Source of the DNA: Microbacterium sp. SZ1
GTDB lineage: Bacteria; Actinomycetota; Actinomycetes; Actinomycetales; Microbacteriaceae
DNA: 64,000 nucleotides
Assembly (NCBI RefSeq): GCF_002362255.1
Contig: NZ_LPVV01000006.1
Location: 1-64,000, forward strand
Reading direction: 5' to 3'
Positions 43,884 to 52,128 of this stretch are shown here, one piece after another. The notes below the pieces were generated by a model. The model saw nothing but the letters and a program-made list of their open reading frames with translations, had not been told where the DNA came from and did no database searches. The stretch's first letter is position 1. Each line of letters begins with the position of its first letter. Both the position numbers and the translations under genes were made by a program.

Positions 43884-45572
43884 TCACCGCGCGCGGACGA
43901 CGCGCCGCTCGTCCCAGACCGGCTCGTCGGCCTCGTACACCCGACCGTCGGACCCGAAGACGAGGAACCGGTCGAACGACCTCGCGAACCACCGGTCGTG
44001 AGTCACGGCCAGCACCGTTCCCTCGAACCGGGTGAGTGCGTCCTCCAGCGCCTCGGCCGACTCGAGGTCGAGGTTGTCCGTCGGCTCGTCGAGCAGCAGC
44101 AGCGTGGCACCCGAGAGCTCGAGCAGCAGCACCTGGAACCGCGCCTGCTGCCCGCCGGACAGCGACTCGAACGTCTGCTGCGCCTGCCGCACGAGGCCGT
44201 ACCTGTCGAGCGCTGAGCTCGCGGCATCCCGGGGCATCCCCGCCCGGCGTTCGTCGCCGCGGTGCAGGATCTCGAGCAGGGTGCGCCCGACGAACTCGGG
44301 ATGCGCATGCGTCTGCGCGAAGAGGCCGGGCACGACGCGCGCGCCCAGCACCGCTGCTCCGGTGTGTGCGACCTCGGACAGCTGATCCCTCGTCGACGTG
44401 ACGTGCCCGAGGCTCGGATCGGGGTCGCTGCCGCCGCGGGCCAGCAGCCGCAGGAAGTGGGACTTGCCCGACCCGTTCGACCCGAGAACGGCTACGCGGT
44501 CGCCGTACCAGACCTCGACATCGAAGGGCTGCATGAGCCCGGTCAGCTCCAACCGATCAGCCACGACCGCGCGCTTGCCGGTGCGCGAGCCGCGCAGCCG
44601 CATGTCGAAGTCCTGCGCGGGCGGGCGCTCCTGCGGCGGACCCGCGTCTTCGAACCGGCGGAGACGCGTCTGCGCGGCCTGGTACCGCGATGCGAAGCCG
44701 TCGTTCGCCGAGGCCTTCACCTTCAGGGTCGCGACGAGCACGAGCAGCTTCTCATGCTGTTCGTCCCACCGCCGGCGCAGCTCGTCGAGGCGATCCATCC
44801 GGTCGGCACGGGCCTGGTGGTACGTGGCGAAACCGCCGCCGTGCACCCATGCCGTTGCACCCGCCCCGCCGGGCTCGAGGGTCACGAGGCGGTCGACGGC
44901 GCGGGCGAGCAGCTCTCGGTCGTGGGACACGAGCAGTACCGTCTTCGGCGTCTGCCGCAGCTGCTCCTCGAGCCAGCGCTTGGTCGGCACGTCGAGGTAG
45001 TTGTCCGGCTCGTCGAGCAGGAGCACCTCGTCGGGCCCACGGAGCAGGGCCTCGAGCGCAAGCCGCTTCTGCTCACCGCCCGAGAGCGTCGTCAGATCGC
45101 GGTAGCGCGCCCTGACGTACGGGACGCCGAGCGCGGCGACCGTGCACTGGTCCCAGACGGTCTCGTGCTCGTACCCGCCGGCGTCGGCGTACTCGGCGAT
45201 CGCCGCGGCGTAAGCCATCTGCGTATCGTGCTCGTCGCGCTCGATCAGCGCGTTCTCGGCGGCCTCGAGGGCCTGCGCTGCGTGCCGGATGCGGGCGGGC
45301 GCGACGCGCACGAGCAGGTCCTGCACCGTCTCGCCGGCCTCGCCGTGTCCGACGAACTGATCCATGACGCCGAGGCCGCCATCGATCGTCACGACTCCGG
45401 CATCCGCCGTCTGATCGCCCCGGATGATCCGCAGCAGCGTGGTCTTTCCCGCTCCGTTGGGCCCGATCAGTGCGCTCGTCGACCCGGAGCCGACGCGGAA
45501 CGTCACCTCGTCGAGCAGCGGTCTCCCGTCGGGCAGGGTCAGCGAGACCCCGGCGATGTCGATGTATCCCAC
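43884..45572 (-). CDS. ABC-F family ATPase
   Basis: A 562-residue soluble protein with two ABC ATPase halves and no membrane domain. Half one has GPNGAGKTT, LSGGEQKRLALE and LLLDEPDNYLD. Half two has GSNGSGKSH, LSGGQQARFQV and LLLDEPTDNLD. A charged linker between them is the usual ribosome-reaching P-site tip region. ABC-F proteins act on the ribosome, some giving antibiotic resistance; this sequence cannot be assigned to either role. Translation starts at GTG. Confidence 0.92.
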   Translation of the reverse strand: MGYIDIAGVSLTLPDGRPLLDEVTFRVGSGSTSALIGPNGAGKTTLLRIIRGDQTADAGVVTIDGGLGVMDQFVGHGEAGETVQDLLVRVAPARIRHAAQALEAAENALIERDEHDTQMAYAAAIAEYADAGGYEHETVWDQCTVAALGVPYVRARYRDLTTLSGGEQKRLALEALLRGPDEVLLLDEPDNYLDVPTKRWLEEQLRQTPKTVLLVSHDRELLARAVDRLVTLEPGGAGATAWVHGGGFATYHQARADRMDRLDELRRRWDEQHEKLLVLVATLKVKASANDGFASRYQAAQTRLRRFEDAGPPQERPPAQDFDMRLRGSRTGKRAVVADRLELTGLMQPFDVEVWYGDRVAVLGSNGSGKSHFLRLLARGGSDPDPSLGHVTSTRDQLSEVAHTGAAVLGARVVPGLFAQTHAHPEFVGRTLLEILHRGDERRAGMPRDAASSALDRYGLVRQAQQTFESLSGGQQARFQVLLLELSGATLLLLDEPTDNLDLESAEALEDALTRFEGTVLAVTHDRWFARSFDRFLVFGSDGRVYEADEPVWDERRVVRAR

Positions 45573-45639: not shown

Positions 45640-47421
45640 TCACACCGTGCTCGCGACCACCTGCACGGCCTCGGTGCGCGGCGACGTCGGCAGGTACATC
45701 CGGAACTCCGTGCCGACGCCCTCCTTGCTCGTGACGTCCATCGACCCGCCGTGCGCGAGCACGATCGCCCGCGTGATCGTGAGCCCCAGGCCCACCCCGG
45801 GCACAGCGTTGCGCGTCGCCGTCGATGCGCGGAAGAAGCGGGTGAACAGCATCCCCTGCTCGTCTTCGGGGATGCCGAGCCCCGTGTCGCGGACGGCGAG
45901 CTCGACGCCGCCGTCGCGTTCACGGACGGAGGCGGTGACCCAGCCTCCGGACGGCGTGAACTTGACTGCGTTCGAAAGGAGATTGTCGAGCGCCTGTCCG
46001 ATGCGGCCGGGGTCGGCGATCGCGCGCACCGGTGTCGACGGAGTCTCCGCCACGAGCTCGACCCCTTCCCGCTGCGCGTGCGGCCCCGACGAGGCCACCG
46101 CGTTCCGCACGATCTCCGCGAGGTCGATCTCCGAGCGATCCAGCGGGAAGCGCCCCGACTCGACCTGGGCGGTGAAGAGCAGGTCGCCGACGAGGGTCAG
46201 CAGCCGCTGGGCGTTGCGCTCGATGATGCCGACGAACTCCTCCTGCTCCTCGGACAGCGGCTGCCCGGGGTCGTTGCGCAGCAGGTCGAGGAATCCGATG
46301 ATCGCGCTCAACGGCGTCCGCAGCTCGTGCGAGATCATCCCGACGAACTCGTCCTTCATGCGCGCGACCTCGACGGCGCGCGTCTCGTCGGTGAGCACCA
46401 GCAGATACCCCTGCGTCTCGCCGGTCGCGTCGCGACGCGGGCTGACGGTGACGCGGGCGGGGACCACGGTGCCGCCGGCCGTCGTGACGTCGATATCGCC
46501 CTCGATACTGCGCTCGGCCTCGGCTCTCGCGAAGAGCGCCTTGATGCCTGAGGGGAGGTCGGCCTCCGCCGCCGCGCACGGGGCGTCGCCGACGAGCTGC
46601 GTGAGCGCCGACACCGTGAAGAAGCGGTCGATGCGCACATCGTCGTGGGCCTCCTGGACCGACAGCCCCAGAAGTCGCACGGCGCCGGGATTCCACTCGG
46701 TCACGCGGCCGGTCAGATCGACCGCCACGACGGCCTGCACCGTGATCGACGCCCAGAGGCTCTGGAACGAGTCGAGCAGCTGACGATATTCGCGCTCCTT
46801 CTCCTGAAGTCGTTCGAGCACCAGCACGTTCTCGCTGAGCGCCGACGTCCGTTCGGCGACGAGCATCTCCGCCTGCTGCACGCGGAGGCGCTGCTGGCGG
46901 GAGAGCTCGTTGACGACCGCCGCGAGCGCGGAGAACACGAGCGGACCGACCACGCCGCGCAGCCAGTCGACCGAACTGCTCGGCGGCTCGGTGATGTACG
47001 GCATGAGCAGGGCGAACGAGGTCAGGGCGCCGACCGCGAACACGTAGCGGATGCCGGGGGCCGCGGCGATCCACACCACCGGAAGAAGCACGAGCGAGGT
47101 GAAGACCGATGTCGGTCCGCCGGTGCCCGCGCGGAAGAGACCGAGTCCGACGATGTCGATCATCGGGATGATGAGCACGATCCATCCGTCGTACACGCGG
47201 CGGGCGCTGAGGATGCCGGCGTGCACGGTCGCGAACAGCACGAGCAGCAGACCTGCCAGAGCGGCGTGGAAGTCAGTGAAGGGCAGGTCGGGGTGCAGCC
47301 AGCTGAACACGGCGGCGAGCGCGGCCGCGATCGCGGTCGGCGCCTGTTTGATCAACGGGCTCGGGTTGTCGAAGATCCCGTACCAGCTGTTCTCCGCCCG
47401 GCGGAGAGGCGTCGCGTTCAC
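45640..47421 (-). CDS. membrane sensor histidine kinase with PAS domain
   Basis: A 593-residue kinase. Six or so TM segments (about 28-172) carry no large outer domain, so it may sense the membrane itself. A coiled coil (about 173-215) leads to a PAS domain (about 216-350, VDLTGRVTEWNPGAVRLLG). The dimerisation/phosphoacceptor site His365 lies in ISHELRTP, and the ATPase region shows NLLSNAVKF, DTGLGIPEDE and GVGLGLTI. It is the last gene of the cluster, and its GTG overlaps the receiver stop (GTGA). Likely partners are the lone receiver next door and the REC domain of the deacetylase fusion. No DNA-binding output protein is in the locus. Confidence 0.93.
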   Translation of the reverse strand: MNATPLRRAENSWYGIFDNPSPLIKQAPTAIAAALAAVFSWLHPDLPFTDFHAALAGLLLVLFATVHAGILSARRVYDGWIVLIIPMIDIVGLGLFRAGTGGPTSVFTSLVLLPVVWIAAAPGIRYVFAVGALTSFALLMPYITEPPSSSVDWLRGVVGPLVFSALAAVVNELSRQQRLRVQQAEMLVAERTSALSENVLVLERLQEKEREYRQLLDSFQSLWASITVQAVVAVDLTGRVTEWNPGAVRLLGLSVQEAHDDVRIDRFFTVSALTQLVGDAPCAAAEADLPSGIKALFARAEAERSIEGDIDVTTAGGTVVPARVTVSPRRDATGETQGYLLVLTDETRAVEVARMKDEFVGMISHELRTPLSAIIGFLDLLRNDPGQPLSEEQEEFVGIIERNAQRLLTLVGDLLFTAQVESGRFPLDRSEIDLAEIVRNAVASSGPHAQREGVELVAETPSTPVRAIADPGRIGQALDNLLSNAVKFTPSGGWVTASVRERDGGVELAVRDTGLGIPEDEQGMLFTRFFRASTATRNAVPGVGLGLTITRAIVLAHGGSMDVTSKEGVGTEFRMYLPTSPRTEAVQVVASTV

Positions 47422-47768
47422 CGCGCGACCCCTCGGAGGATGCCGCGGAGGTCGGCTCCGACGATCGGCTTCGGCAGCGCGGCATCCGCCTCCGGATAGT
47501 CCGACGCGTCCAGCACCGAACTCACGATGAGGAAGCACTCGGGGAATCGCGTCCGCACGAGCCGGGCGCACTCGGCTCCCGTGATGCCGGGGAGCAGGAG
47601 GTCGACGACGGCCACGGCGGGAGAGATCGTGTCGAACGCGGCGATGGCGCTCTCGGCATCCGCCGCGGCGAAGACGTCGAATCCCTCCCGGTCGAGGTGG
47701 CGGCGCAGGAGTGCCGTCTGGTCGGCGCTGTCTTCGACCACGAGCGCGAGCGGCCGCCCGTTCGTCAC
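47418..47768 (-). CDS. single-domain response regulator
   Basis: A 116-residue receiver domain without output domain. Phospho-acceptor Asp56 lies in AVVDLLLPG, acidic Glu12-Asp13 in VVEDSAD, and Lys in ALPKPI; an SS pair replaces the usual Thr site (LIVSSVLDASD). Translation starts at GTG (47768), which overlaps the stop of the 46-residue peptide, and the stop overlaps the kinase start. Such lone receivers relay phosphate or bind partners directly; here it could link the kinase to the REC-PIG-L enzyme. Confidence 0.9.
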   Translation of the reverse strand: MTNGRPLALVVEDSADQTALLRRHLDREGFDVFAAADAESAIAAFDTISPAVAVVDLLLPGITGAECARLVRTRFPECFLIVSSVLDASDYPEADAALPKPIVGADLRGILRGVAR

Positions 47769-47905
47769 AGCAGCAGCTCCCGCACGATCACCACGACCAC
47801 GACGACGGCCAGTGAGAGGAGCGCCTGCCACACGAGGCGTCGCTCGCGCCGGGCATCCGTCGTGATCTCCTGCTCCTCCTCCGCGCGTGTGAGTGCATCG
47901 CTCAT
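47765..47905 (-). CDS. 46-residue single-pass membrane peptide
   Basis: A charged N-terminal half (ALTRAEEEQEITTDARRERR) is followed by one TM helix ending VVVVVVIVRELLL. The ATG at 47905 overlaps the glycosyltransferase stop (ATGA), and its stop overlaps the receiver start (GTGA). That tight packing argues it is translated. It is too short for family assignment. A small partner subunit of the glycosyltransferase or of the kinase is a reasonable guess. Confidence 0.7.
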   Translation of the reverse strand: MSDALTRAEEEQEITTDARRERRLVWQALLSLAVVVVVVIVRELLL

Positions 47906-49389
47906 GACTCGACCCGTCCGACCTTCTCGGTCTTGATCCATGCGGCGTCGGCGCGACGCCACTCCTTGATGTAGGAGTCCACGGTGATGGCGCACAGCAG
48001 CGAGCCGTATCCGCAGACGTAGAGCAGGAGTCCGGCGAAGAACCGCCCACCGGGGAGCTTCTCGACTGCACGGGCGAGCCAGATGCCGAGCATCGAGATC
48101 GGCCCCCACAGGTAGAAGCCGATCGCCCAGAGGATGCGCGTCTCGTCGTCGAGCGGGAGCCCGAGCGCGGCGAGCCCGTCTTCGAAGAGGCGCGGGAACA
48201 GCGCGATAGCCATGAGGAGGAGCGCTCCGATTCCCGGGAACATGAGCGCCTCCCGCCAGGACTGGCGGCCGATCCGCGGATCGAGCTGCACCGCGAACAG
48301 CATCGAGAACAGGTAGATGCACGCGGCGGAGATCCACATGAAGCGGAACACGAACTCCGCGATGTCGCTGTGCAGGAGCAGCAGCGCGAGCATCCCCGCC
48401 GCGGCGAGCAGCATGAACGCGGGCAGCAGCAGGATCGTGAACCACGCGAGGCCGAAGGCGAAGCTCCCGAGGTTGTGCTGGTCGCTCGGGCGAAACCACA
48501 GCCGCTTGTAGATCGACGTGAGCTGCACGTTCCCGCGCGCCCAGCGCAGGCGCTGTTTCCAGAGCGAGTCGATCGTGCGTGGCTCCTCCGCGAGTACGAC
48601 GGCATGGGGCTCGAAGATCATGCTGCGGCCCTTGAGCTGCCCCTCGAACGTCGTCATCGTGTCCTCGGCGAGGGTGCCGGTGGGGATGCGTCCGCCGATC
48701 GCCTCGAGGTTCGCGCGCGAGTGCAGCTGCGCCCCTCCGGCGAGGCACGCGACCGCGCCGCCGACGTTCTGCGTGCGCCGAGCCGACAGCTGTCCGATGA
48801 CGTACTCGATCGCGATGAACCGGGTCAGATAGTTGCGGTCGCGGCTGCCCTCGGCGATGTAGGCGGTGACCGCGCCGACCTTCTCGTCTGCGAGGTGGCG
48901 GCTGAGCTTGCGCAGCGAGTCGCGCGCGAAGATCACGTCGGCGTCCATGATGAGCACGGCCTCGGTCCACTCATCCGCGAGCACGACGTCGAGACCGTGA
49001 TTGAGCGTGTGCGCCTTGCCCTGCCCACCCTGCTCGCGGCGCAGATGCACCACGCGGCCGGGGTGGGCCTCGATCTTCGCCGCCACGACCGCCGGGGTGT
49101 CATCGGTCGAGGCATCGTCGATCACGAAGACCCGGAGCCGGTCGGCCGGGTATTCCAGCTGCAGCAGCCGCTCGATCGCCGGACCGAGCACGAGCGCCTC
49201 GTTCCACGCCGGGATGAGCACGGCGATGCGGGGATGATGCGGAGCGGCCTTGCCGTAGTGGTTGCGGAACGCGTGCACGGGCAGCAGGAGGAACTGCAGC
49301 CCGGTGTTGATCACCGGCAGCGTGCCGACGAGCACGCAGAGGATGAGCACGACGACCAGAGCTGTCTCGGCGGGGTTGAGGACGGGCAT
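47902..49389 (-). CDS. processive family-2 glycosyltransferase
   Basis: A 495-residue membrane glycosyltransferase. One or two TM at the N-terminus are followed by a cytoplasmic GT-A domain (IAVLIPAWNEA, VIDDASTDDT, acceptor DxD in IMDADVIF, EDTMTTFEGQL) with the processive QxxRW motif as QRLRW, then about five TM segments. The layout is that of PgaC/NodC/hyaluronan-synthase-like enzymes that build and export a polysaccharide. It is coupled to the PHP gene (TGATG). Together with a PIG-L deacetylase in the same operon, an N-acetyl-amino-sugar polymer is the most natural product (inference). Confidence 0.9.
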   Translation of the reverse strand: MPVLNPAETALVVVLILCVLVGTLPVINTGLQFLLLPVHAFRNHYGKAAPHHPRIAVLIPAWNEALVLGPAIERLLQLEYPADRLRVFVIDDASTDDTPAVVAAKIEAHPGRVVHLRREQGGQGKAHTLNHGLDVVLADEWTEAVLIMDADVIFARDSLRKLSRHLADEKVGAVTAYIAEGSRDRNYLTRFIAIEYVIGQLSARRTQNVGGAVACLAGGAQLHSRANLEAIGGRIPTGTLAEDTMTTFEGQLKGRSMIFEPHAVVLAEEPRTIDSLWKQRLRWARGNVQLTSIYKRLWFRPSDQHNLGSFAFGLAWFTILLLPAFMLLAAAGMLALLLLHSDIAEFVFRFMWISAACIYLFSMLFAVQLDPRIGRQSWREALMFPGIGALLLMAIALFPRLFEDGLAALGLPLDDETRILWAIGFYLWGPISMLGIWLARAVEKLPGGRFFAGLLLYVCGYGSLLCAITVDSYIKEWRRADAAWIKTEKVGRVES

Positions 49390-50099
49390 CAGACGCTCCG
49401 CCCGTCGAGGAGGGCGACGACGCCGTCGTAGCGACCCACGTCGGAGGCCTCATGGCTGTCGGTCGAGGCGACGACGACAGCTCCGGCATCCCGCAGCGCG
49501 TCGAGCAGCGCGCCGCCCGGGCAGCCCCATTTCTCGTTGACCTCGACGAGGGTGTCGGTCTCGGCTGCCGTGCGCGCCCAGCTCGCGATCCGCTCGGACC
49601 CGAGATCGTTCTCCGTCAGACCGATCTTCGGCAGGATCGAGAAGCAGTGCGCCAGCTGGTTGCCCGGGTGCCGCGTCATCGAGGCGTTCAGGGCGCTCAC
49701 GAGCTGATCGAGGACGTCGTCCGCCGCCCAGCCGGCTGAGATGCGCTCGCGCACCGCGGTCGGCCCGAGCGGACCGTCTTCGCCGGGGAACTGGTGGTCC
49801 GCGATGAGGATGCGGTCGATCCCGTCCGGGAGGAGGGGGATGTCGAGCTCGCCCGCGGCGTCGAGGATCTTCGCCTCCACGCCGGTGAGCACGTCGAGGC
49901 CGTCCGGCACGCGCAGCGCCCGGACAGCGGCGAGGTACTCGGGCACCCAGGCGGTGTCGCGCCGCACGTGGTCGACGAGTCGGAGAGTCGTCAGCCCCCG
50001 TTCGGCGGCCGCCGCGACGTTCTCCTCGAGGGTCGACACGGCGTCGTCCGAGAACGTGGAGTGCACGTGGTGGTCGCCGCGAAGCAGGTCGTGGATCAC
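49389..50099 (-). CDS. PHP-domain metal-dependent phosphoesterase
   Basis: A 236-residue PHP domain. Metal ligands are visible: HHVHST at 10-15 (HxH), VDHVRR, VEAKI, ADHQF and the closing STDSHE. This is close to histidinol-phosphatase-like PHP proteins in length. GTG 50099 overlaps the ATP-grasp stop (GTGA), and the stop overlaps the glycosyltransferase ATG (TGATG). It would hydrolyse a phosphate ester, perhaps of a sugar intermediate; substrate unknown. Confidence 0.88.
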   Translation of the reverse strand: MIHDLLRGDHHVHSTFSDDAVSTLEENVAAAAERGLTTLRLVDHVRRDTAWVPEYLAAVRALRVPDGLDVLTGVEAKILDAAGELDIPLLPDGIDRILIADHQFPGEDGPLGPTAVRERISAGWAADDVLDQLVSALNASMTRHPGNQLAHCFSILPKIGLTENDLGSERIASWARTAAETDTLVEVNEKWGCPGGALLDALRDAGAVVVASTDSHEASDVGRYDGVVALLDGRSV

Positions 50100-51085
50100 A
50101 GCTCGTCCTGGTGGCCGGCATGATCGGAGACGAGCACCTCGTCGACCTCGACGATGACGTCTTCGAGGAAGCGCACGGATGCGAGTTCCCGGAACGGCAC
50201 GGATGCGGGGATCTCGACTCCGAGGAACAGATCGGCCACGAGCGAGGGTATGTCGACGCCGGCCGCGATCGTCAGCGGCAGCGCGCCGGGGAACCGCGGG
50301 TTCACCTCGAGCAGCATCGCGCGTCCAGAGCGGTCGCGTCGCAACTGCACGTTCGCGACGCCGACGAGTCCGATGGCCTCCGCGACGGCGGTCGCGGTCT
50401 GTTCGAGCTCCTCGTCGTGCACCGTGCGGCCGGCGATGGCGACGCCCGAGTCGACGCGCGCGCGGGTGCGCGGCACCGCGGCGACGACACGACCCGAGGC
50501 ATCGGCGAGCACGTCGACCGAGTACTCCTCGCCGGGGAGGAACTCCTGCACGATCAATCCCTCGTCGACCGGCAGGGCTTCGAGCGCCGCACGGTCGGGG
50601 ATGAGGCGGATGCCGCGACTTCCCGCCCCCTGGCGAGGCTTGGCGAAAACGGGGAACTCCCACTCGGCGGCCAGCGCCTCGGGCCCTGCGAGCAGCGAAC
50701 GAGGGCTGCGCCCGGTCGATGCGCACCGCTTCGCGAGCACGTACTTGTCGAGTGCGGCGTGCAGCGTGTCCTCGGAGGGGGCGGCGAGCACGGCCGGAGC
50801 GAGCTCGTCGCGCCGGCCCGCGAGAGCTGTGAGCTCGACGTCGACCGTGGAGATCACGAGATCGAGTCGGTCGTCGCGCACCATCCGGGCGATCGCGGGG
50901 ACGAAGTCGTCGTCCCGCCCGGGTGGGACGAGTCGTCGCCGCTCGGGCGGGACGAGGTAGATGCCGCTGGCCCACCCGTCCATGTCGGCGGCGAACACCG
51001 TGAGGTCGTCGCGGCGGAGCAGTGAGCGGATCACCGCGACGCCGGCGGGGCCACCGGCACCGGTGACGAGGATGCGGGCGGTCAT
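50096..51085 (-). CDS. ATP-grasp domain protein (CarB-like ligase)
   Basis: A 329-residue ligase. It has an N-terminal Rossmann-like pre-ATP-grasp domain (ILVTGAGGPAGVAVIRSLL), central ATP-grasp subdomain (FPVFAKPRQGAGSRGI, VQEFLPGEEYSVDV) and Mg-binding end (MLLEVNPRFPG). ATP-grasp enzymes join a carboxylate, through an acyl phosphate, to an amine or thiol. In surface-polymer loci they often add amino acids to sugars. AGGAGG precedes the ATG at 51085, which overlaps the stop of the REC-PIG-L gene. Confidence 0.88.
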   Translation of the reverse strand: MTARILVTGAGGPAGVAVIRSLLRRDDLTVFAADMDGWASGIYLVPPERRRLVPPGRDDDFVPAIARMVRDDRLDLVISTVDVELTALAGRRDELAPAVLAAPSEDTLHAALDKYVLAKRCASTGRSPRSLLAGPEALAAEWEFPVFAKPRQGAGSRGIRLIPDRAALEALPVDEGLIVQEFLPGEEYSVDVLADASGRVVAAVPRTRARVDSGVAIAGRTVHDEELEQTATAVAEAIGLVGVANVQLRRDRSGRAMLLEVNPRFPGALPLTIAAGVDIPSLVADLFLGVEIPASVPFRELASVRFLEDVIVEVDEVLVSDHAGHQDEL

Positions 51086-52128
51086 CAACCCTCCTGCCTG
51101 GTGAGTTCGTGGGCTCCTATGAATTCAGCCGTCTCGCGCACGACTTCGAGCGGCTCGACGGCCGCTCCCCCTCCGAAGCGGGACCAGTAGCGCGCGGTCG
51201 CGGTGACGAAGCCGGGGTCGAGGTAGTCGCGCGTCGCGGTCTGAGAGGCGAAGCACTCGAGCAGCTGCAGCTTCTCTCCCAGGTAGTCGTCGATGCGCAC
51301 GAACCGCGTGGGACGGAAGTCGATCGTCGCAGACGGGCTCTGATAGCAGGCGACCGTGCCGACACGTCGCGTGGCGACGAGCGTCGCCTCGCTGACGGCT
51401 CGGTGATCCTGGTGACGATCGTGCTCGGAGTGCGTGTAGACGATGGTCGGCTGCACCTCGTTCACGACCTCTTCGATGAGCCGGACGGTGGTTCCGCCGC
51501 CGGAGATCTCGGTGTCGATGAGGTCTTTGAGGAAGAGGCGGGCGCCCAGCCGATCGGCCGAGGCGAGCGACTCGTGCTGCCGGCTGTCGGCGTCGCCTCC
51601 GCGCGAGCCGCGCGACAGCGTGAGGATCGTGACGGAGTCGCCGGCGCGGGCGTGCGCCGCGAGGATGCCGCCGACGCCGATCTCCACGTCGTCGGGGTGC
51701 GCGCCGATCGCGAGCACGACCTGCTTCGCGCGGCTGGCGGTCCGGCGAGCGCGGCCCTCCGCAGCGAGCCGCGTGACGGCCTCGACGAGTCGTACGTTGT
51801 CGAGGGGCTTGGTGAGGAACTCGTCGGCCTGAGCGCGGAGCGCTGAGACGGCGTACTCGACCGAGACGTGCGCGGTCATCACGATGACGGGCACGACGGG
51901 GTCGCGGCGTCGCAGCTCGGCGACGAGTTCGAGGCCGTCGAGGCCCGGCATCTCGATGTCGGTGACCACCACGTCGGGTTCGAACTCGGCGATGCGCTCG
52001 ACGGCGGTCAACCCGTCGCCGGCGGTGAGCACGACGCAGCCCGCTCGGCGTTCGAGCACCGTCTTGACCAGCAGAGCGACGTCGGGATCGTCGTCGACGA
52101 CGAGGACGCGGGGTGCATCGTCAGACAT
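51085..52128 (-). CDS. response-regulator receiver fused to PIG-L/LmbE deacetylase
   Basis: A 347-residue two-domain protein. Residues 5-120 are a receiver: Asp13-Asp14 (VVDDDPD), phospho-acceptor Asp57 (VVTDIEMPG), Thr in VMTAHV and Lys in TKPLD. From about 135 it is a PIG-L deacetylase with Zn motif AHPDDVEIG and the second motif HSEHDRHQDH. There is no frame break between them; the linker is 15-20 residues. PIG-L enzymes remove N-acetyl groups from amino sugars, so phosphorylation could switch a deacetylase directly. The ATG at 52128 follows GGAGAG by about 8 bases. It is the first gene of the cluster. Confidence 0.92.
   Translation of the reverse strand: MSDDAPRVLVVDDDPDVALLVKTVLERRAGCVVLTAGDGLTAVERIAEFEPDVVVTDIEMPGLDGLELVAELRRRDPVVPVIVMTAHVSVEYAVSALRAQADEFLTKPLDNVRLVEAVTRLAAEGRARRTASRAKQVVLAIGAHPDDVEIGVGGILAAHARAGDSVTILTLSRGSRGGDADSRQHESLASADRLGARLFLKDLIDTEISGGGTTVRLIEEVVNEVQPTIVYTHSEHDRHQDHRAVSEATLVATRRVGTVACYQSPSATIDFRPTRFVRIDDYLGEKLQLLECFASQTATRDYLDPGFVTATARYWSRFGGGAAVEPLEVVRETAEFIGAHELTRQEG

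Follow-up and report, generated by a model that had tools for sequence, protein, structure and literature searches.

A receiver-fused PIG-L deacetylase in a conserved gene cluster of Microbacterium: a possible synthase-dependent exopolysaccharide system under two-component control

What do four biosynthetic enzymes make, and on what does a phosphorelay act, when both are encoded in one unbroken series of overlapping genes? We addressed this question for a 64,000-nucleotide stretch of Microbacterium sp. SZ1 (contig NZ_LPVV01000006.1, positions 1 to 64,000; hereafter the window), in which seven overlapping open reading frames (ORFs) run on the minus strand from 52128 to 45640, joined by six junctions of 1-4 bases. 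They encode a receiver fused to a PIG-L deacetylase (REC-PIG-L), an ATP-grasp ligase, a PHP-domain phosphoesterase, a family 2 glycosyltransferase (GT2), a small membrane peptide, a lone receiver and a sensor histidine kinase (Table 1). The initial annotation had described the cluster in these terms, and all of its ORFs, junctions and domains proved correct when checked against the sequence and Pfam. We put at about even the chances that the cluster is a synthase-dependent exopolysaccharide system under post-translational two-component control. This reading draws, at sequence level, on the gene set and its conservation, the type of synthase, the type of exporter in Gram-negative relatives, the intact motifs, and the co-occurrence of receiver and kinase.

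The gene order and overlaps recur in other actinobacterial families and the small peptide has its own control (below), so the cluster is more than a chance arrangement; the recurrence also bears out the proposal of one overlapping unit. REC-PIG-L was searched for in 297 genomes of the order, 17 of which (the window's own included) hold relatives spanning all or most of the receiver and PIG-L parts; weaker rows match the receiver alone or PIG-L alone. A wide scan of one genome per named species (84,980 species), which kept the best 80 loci and is no census, returned at least 80 REC-PIG-L loci. Among the matches listed are Microbacterium, Leucobacter, Leifsonia, Cellulomonas, Blastococcus, Thermoleophilia, Ilumatobacteraceae, Myxococcales, Lysobacterales, Marinicella, Burkholderiales, Legionella and Rhodospirillales. 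With family membership cut at E 1e-60, GT2 is present in 14 of the 297 order genomes and 3 of 13 genomes of the genus. PIG-L, ATP-grasp and PHP genes adjoin it in 14 of 14, the actinobacterial co-occurrence that the initial annotation had suggested looking for, with one genome (G004, locus L050) carrying a PIG-L without receiver. Conservation thus reaches beyond one or two strains. In a sample of the phylum, GT2 was found in 3 of 396 genomes (own included), the other two both carrying the full cluster. Because GT2 occurs in few genomes, yet beside its partner genes in each, the system is, by these searches, rare but cohesive.

A rapidly built PIG-L domain tree groups the window with other Microbacterium clusters. 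Losses also occur: the L042 cluster has lost PHP and GT2, and in Leifsonia (L058, L090) GT2 is missing from the cluster and present elsewhere in the genome. It likewise lies elsewhere in the genomes of L076, L087, L091 and L125; searches of the L084 and L086 genomes did not find it. In the window proteins, the PIG-L motifs HPDD (144-147) and HQDH (239-242) are intact, the PHP metal-type series HxH, H, E, H, H, DxH is complete, and the kinase His365, lone-receiver Asp56 and REC-PIG-L Asp57 are all in place; going by family, we take the listed motifs to be catalytic or metal residues. Active-site motifs are mostly invariant across the aligned relatives, the exceptions being the receivers of L045 and L047. 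The search of the whole window genome yielded no PIG-L protein other than REC-PIG-L.

Judged by its motifs and predicted fold, GT2 looks like a membrane synthase of the processive type. Its predicted structure (predicted local distance difference test, pLDDT, 90; predicted template-modelling score, pTM, 0.88) aligned with hyaluronan, cellulose and chitin synthases in the PDB over about 500 columns, and the processive-type motifs were all kept in 28 of 28 aligned rows. The highest NCBIfam score was for PgaC/IcaA (120 bits, far under the 422.3 cut-off). GT2 also matches HpnI and a mannosyltransferase. A one-span small peptide starts near the GT2 stop at 39 of 45 loci, 35 of them via a 4-base overlap, compared with 46 of 863 control genes longer than 200 amino acids, GT2 genes included; the 45 loci are related by descent and do not represent 45 independent cases.

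Proteobacterial clusters add a protein that combines TPR repeats with a β-barrel at its C-terminus, present at ten loci (L078, L081, L082, L088, L089, L091, L093, L094, L125 and L142). The profile for this protein was built from seven of the ten, and L088, L094 and L142 then matched it well. The match was weaker at Myxococcales L087 (156 bits), L103 (59 bits) and L130 (39 bits), the last two probably reflecting TPR repeats alone, and none was found in L140, from the same genome as L087. The predicted structure (pLDDT 84.8, pTM 0.63) comprises 11 helices and 16 strands. Its top PDB match was BcsC, the channel for cellulose; OmpG and FadL came next, and PelB, an exopolysaccharide channel, ranked sixth. 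The gene layout with this barrel is that of synthase-dependent exopolysaccharide secretion. Because Gram-negative relatives carry such a BcsC/PelB-like outer-membrane protein, we lean to a synthase-dependent polymer, which sharpens the original wording of an amino-sugar polymer or glycoconjugate; its amino-sugar part is supported by comparison with related clusters. Large ORFs with an IgGFc_binding domain were also seen beside REC-PIG-L in a myxobacterium (L087:6036-9674) and a proteobacterium (L125:11110-13566).

Among the 61 distinct REC-PIG-L loci, the receiver has both the acceptor Asp and the Lys in 53. A kinase lies in the fetched stretch for 45 of the 53 intact receivers versus 0 of 8 degenerate ones (Fisher p 4e-6), and nearby in 4 of 36 receiver-less PIG-L loci (L079, cut at a contig end, was left out). 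As the loci are related, independent events were counted as well: receiver degeneration corresponds to 4 changes on the tree and 3 independent pairs, with the kinase never in the opposite direction. At eight loci (L036, L037, L044, L069, L071, L073, L074 and L084), the stretch contains REC-PIG-L and a kinase but lacks the main ATP-grasp/GT2 set. At L044 and L074 weak relatives of both enzymes lie nearby, at L036 and L037 REC-PIG-L adjoins the kinase and the other enzymes are missing, and at L069, L071 and L073 one or two lone receivers stand between the two. From such gene content, the kinase goes with REC-PIG-L, and the deacetylase may be able to work apart from the polymer synthase. The L073 stretch also contains, after REC-PIG-L, four histidine kinases matching the window kinase model within 8 kb, interspersed with lone receivers (L073:9425-17368). 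In the window, an apparently intact histidine kinase and a phosphorylatable-type receiver on an enzyme are both present, the make-up of a two-component system with enzymatic output. Pfam found no DNA-binding domain among the seven cluster proteins, in agreement with the earlier description of two receivers and one kinase with no DNA-binding output.

The remaining enzymes most likely concern the precursor. No membrane segment is seen in PIG-L, ATP-grasp or PHP, which should therefore act before extrusion. The phosphatase slot is filled by unrelated families (PHP, His_Phos_1 or HAD): PHP is found in L125, near L087 and in those actinobacterial clusters that have GT2, and a His-phosphatase in L081, L088, L089, L091, L093 and L094, assigned by Pfam in L088 and L089 only and by a profile built from all six, at an equal position in each. 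PHP and His_Phos_1 were never found together in one stretch, and neither lies within reach in L078 and L082. A phosphatase step seems to be required. A role for PHP as a SixA-like part of the phosphorelay is unlikely, given that 7 of 8 kinase-less loci with degenerate receivers keep PHP or a His-phosphatase; the eighth, L048, has neither. In a sister cluster (L098, L099, L101, L105, L106 and L114; Pfam on L098 and L106, the remaining members by tblastn), PIG-L stands with a weaker GT2 relative, an ATP-grasp, a HAD enzyme and a UDP-GlcNAc 2-epimerase (WecB, over cut-off), and the epimerase points to UDP-amino-sugar chemistry. Hosts of the sister cluster are Actinoplanes, Geodermatophilus and an acidimicrobiial metagenome-assembled genome (L098), and the clusters in L106 (9441-15924) and L099 (5415-10693) have an ATP-grasp that carries a fused exosortase/archaeosortase domain (TIGR04178, scoring over its cut-off).

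From these data we infer the substrate, the polymer, the order of the steps and the direction of control. GT2 and its one-span partner would polymerise and extrude an amino-sugar polymer. PIG-L, ATP-grasp and PHP would most likely act on the sugar nucleotide that serves as precursor, or on a cytosolic primer, before polymerisation: PIG-L would free the amine of an N-acetylhexosamine, the ATP-grasp would then load another group, probably an amino acid, onto that amine, and the phosphatase would dephosphorylate an intermediate. The membrane kinase would sense a signal and phosphorylate the receiver on the deacetylase, altering deacetylase activity, and the free receiver would form a second branch, either draining off phosphate or regulating GT2 directly. 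In its fullest form, the proposal is that Actinomycetota and Proteobacteria secrete a hitherto undescribed polymer, built of amino sugars that are re-acylated (probably with amino acids), whose chemistry is set by a phosphorelay-switched deacetylase in place of cyclic di-GMP (c-di-GMP) control of the synthase. We offer this version tentatively, as possible but doubtful.

Known systems share parts of this composition. Poly-N-acetylglucosamine systems (PgaABCD/IcaADBC) possess a small membrane partner (PgaD/IcaD), deacetylation and, in Gram-negatives, a TPR-barrel exporter, and PgaC/IcaA is the top NCBIfam model for the window GT2. Their deacetylase is an exported NodB-type enzyme, whereas that of the window is a cytosolic PIG-L with a receiver, and the ATP-grasp and phosphatase are extra; Pfam found no NodB-type deacetylase domain among the seven cluster proteins. 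The low PgaC/IcaA score led us to reject poly-N-acetylglucosamine synthesis proper. The Bcs and Pel systems are alike in that the Gram-negative exporter model matches BcsC first and PelB too, and GT2 aligns with BcsA. They differ in control, which here apparently uses a phosphorelay instead of c-di-GMP: a c-di-GMP receptor is frequent, though not universal, in synthase-dependent systems, and Pfam found no PilZ, GGDEF or EAL domain among the seven proteins. The yaiS-yaiP-yaiX-yaiO stretch of E. coli K-12 is a distant relative (YaiS 115 bits against the PIG-L part, YaiP 48 bits against GT2), with YaiO annotated as an outer-membrane protein and the products annotated only as putative. Unlike the window, it has no receiver or ATP-grasp, carrying an acyltransferase (IS2-interrupted) instead. 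YaiO was not supported as an orthologue of the TPR-barrel protein (E 0.12 against its model).

Direct action of a receiver on exopolysaccharide synthesis has a precedent. PMC12802240 describes c-di-GMP as a frequent means of controlling synthase-dependent pathways and EpsW of Myxococcus xanthus as a free receiver that stimulates EpsZ, the first transferase of a Wzx/Wzy pathway. There too the receiver's direct target is an enzyme of exopolysaccharide synthesis and no gene is regulated, but EpsW is a separate single-domain regulator and its target a phosphoglycosyl transferase (PMC12802240). The words 'deacetylase' and 'PIG-L' are absent from the main text of PMC12802240, as are PIG-L and LmbE from the Lipocone paper (PMC12419801). 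A search of open PMC papers, judged by titles and abstract openings and with subscription papers and preprints outside its scope, found no description of REC-PIG-L or of the gene set, in line with the initial annotation. The cluster thus apparently represents a variant, not described before, of the synthase-dependent polysaccharide systems, distinguished by a deacetylase fused to a receiver.

The product could instead be a small glycoconjugate or glycolipid made by a mycothiol-like pathway, with GT2 forming one bond on a lipid or metabolite. Mycothiol-like logic runs through glycosyl transfer, dephosphorylation, PIG-L deacetylation and ATP-driven amino-acid ligation, which the four enzyme types of the cluster fit. 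The window deacetylase shares its family with BshB1, MshB and Mca, and BshB1 is its best PIG-L-type NCBIfam match (86.6 bits); the GT2 matches to HpnI and a mannosyltransferase, and the existence of REC-PIG-L without GT2, favour a glycoconjugate as well. These points are offset by the processive-type motifs, the full-length alignment of GT2 to synthases and the outer-membrane barrel of Gram-negative relatives. BshB1 also misses its cut-off of 182.5, MshB and Mca are not among the 25 NCBIfam families listed, and no MshC exceeds its cut-off in the window genome (263 versus 485 bits). Lacking such an MshC and having a single PIG-L protein, this genome is probably not a mycothiol producer, and mycothiol or bacillithiol biosynthesis was rejected. 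We consider the broader glycoconjugate explanation unlikely.

Several observations weigh against a synthase-dependent system under two-component control. The profile search found the TPR-barrel exporter in no actinobacterial stretch, which makes the evidence for export indirect in the case of the window genome; the top PDB match of GT2 by E-value is the archaeal mannosyltransferase 6yv7; no small peptide was seen beside 6 of 45 GT2 genes; and a cytosolic deacetylase is unusual for synthase-dependent systems. Regarding control, 8 of 53 intact receivers have no kinase in reach (some stretches are short), and the receiver-kinase link amounts to 3-4 independent events, with which a sign test cannot reach significance. 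Four genomes (G292, G220, G299 and G300) hold REC-PIG-L and kinase with no family GT2 or ATP-grasp found genome-wide, so the deacetylase may have a GT2-unrelated substrate. The lone receiver is missing from Cellulomonas-type clusters (e.g., L040, L041 and L043), which makes it accessory and counts against the reading in its simple form. The earlier claim that the signal acts on the deacetylase accordingly stands as far as the kinase is tied to the receiver-deacetylase across genomes, and falters as a simple reading on these four genomes and the accessory receiver. The kinase and receivers might even act mainly elsewhere, for instance on a distant transcription regulator, with the PIG-L receiver as a docking or dimerisation module in an ordinary exopolysaccharide operon with a co-transcribed two-component system. 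In lineages where no kinase is near, PIG-L still bears degenerate receivers, and the fold of the receiver may therefore be structural; the widely kept Asp and Lys, a kinase that adjoins REC-PIG-L even without other biosynthetic genes, and a cluster devoid of DNA-binding domains argue the other way and make this rather unlikely.

Some neighbouring features were recorded alongside. A 562-amino acid ORF, ABC-F ATPase-like by eye, lies at 43884-45572 on the same strand, 67 bases downstream of the cluster, and an ORF of equal length follows the kinase in L032, L033 and L052. No promoter-like or terminator-like site was found between 45400 and 52800, a scan that says little at the window GC of 69%. 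Just downstream of the kinase in L043 is a FAD-binding gene (L043:4026-5426; PF01565, tested in L043 only), and ORFs of similar size occur in the Cellulomonas-type L040, L041 and L042. Clusters with degenerate receivers encode, downstream of GT2, a conserved protein of 500-603 amino acids whose hydrophobic N-terminus resembles a signal peptide. Its L045 and L047 copies had no Pfam or NCBIfam match, and no PDB match was better than E 0.09; a glycoside hydrolase assignment in the Occultella and Serinicoccus clusters could not be shown, with no family or PDB support.

Table 1 Genes and junctions of the window cluster, and a protein of related clusters (lengths in amino acids, aa).
Feature	Position	Strand	Basis
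REC-PIG-L, receiver (Asp57) fused to cytosolic PIG-L/LmbE-type de-N-acetylase, 347 aa	51085..52128	-	Pfam Response_reg + PIG-L
ATP-grasp ligase, 329 aa	50096..51085	-	Pfam ATPgrasp_Ter (PF15632) + ATP-grasp_3 (PF02655)
PHP-domain phosphoesterase, YcdX-related, 236 aa, GTG start	49389..50099	-	Pfam PHP
GT2 membrane synthase, motifs DD, DAD, ED, QRLRW, 495 aa	47902..49389	-	Pfam Glyco_tranf_2_3
Single-span peptide, conserved GT2 partner, 46 aa	47765..47905	-	no Pfam family
Single-domain receiver (Asp56), accessory, 116 aa	47418..47768	-	Pfam Response_reg
Membrane sensor histidine kinase: N-terminal transmembrane region, PAS, HisKA (His365), HATPase_c; 593 aa	45640..47421	-	Pfam
Junction REC-PIG-L/ATP-grasp, TGATG, 1 base	51085		
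Junction ATP-grasp/PHP, GTGA, 4 bases			
Junction PHP/GT2, TGATG, 1 base			
Junction GT2/peptide, ATGA, 4 bases			
Junction peptide/lone receiver, GTGA, 4 bases			
Junction lone receiver/kinase, GTGA, 4 bases			
500-603 aa protein of related clusters	L095:14244-15746, L096:14385-16196, L046:11598-13100, L047:12090-13898		

If a synthase-dependent system under two-component control is indeed encoded here, a sensor kinase acting on a fused deacetylase would constitute another direct-control route for synthase-dependent polysaccharides, and the switch would alter the chemistry of the polymer as well as its amount. The system offers a defined pathway of four enzymes, together with a conserved small membrane protein as partner, testable in soil actinobacteria.

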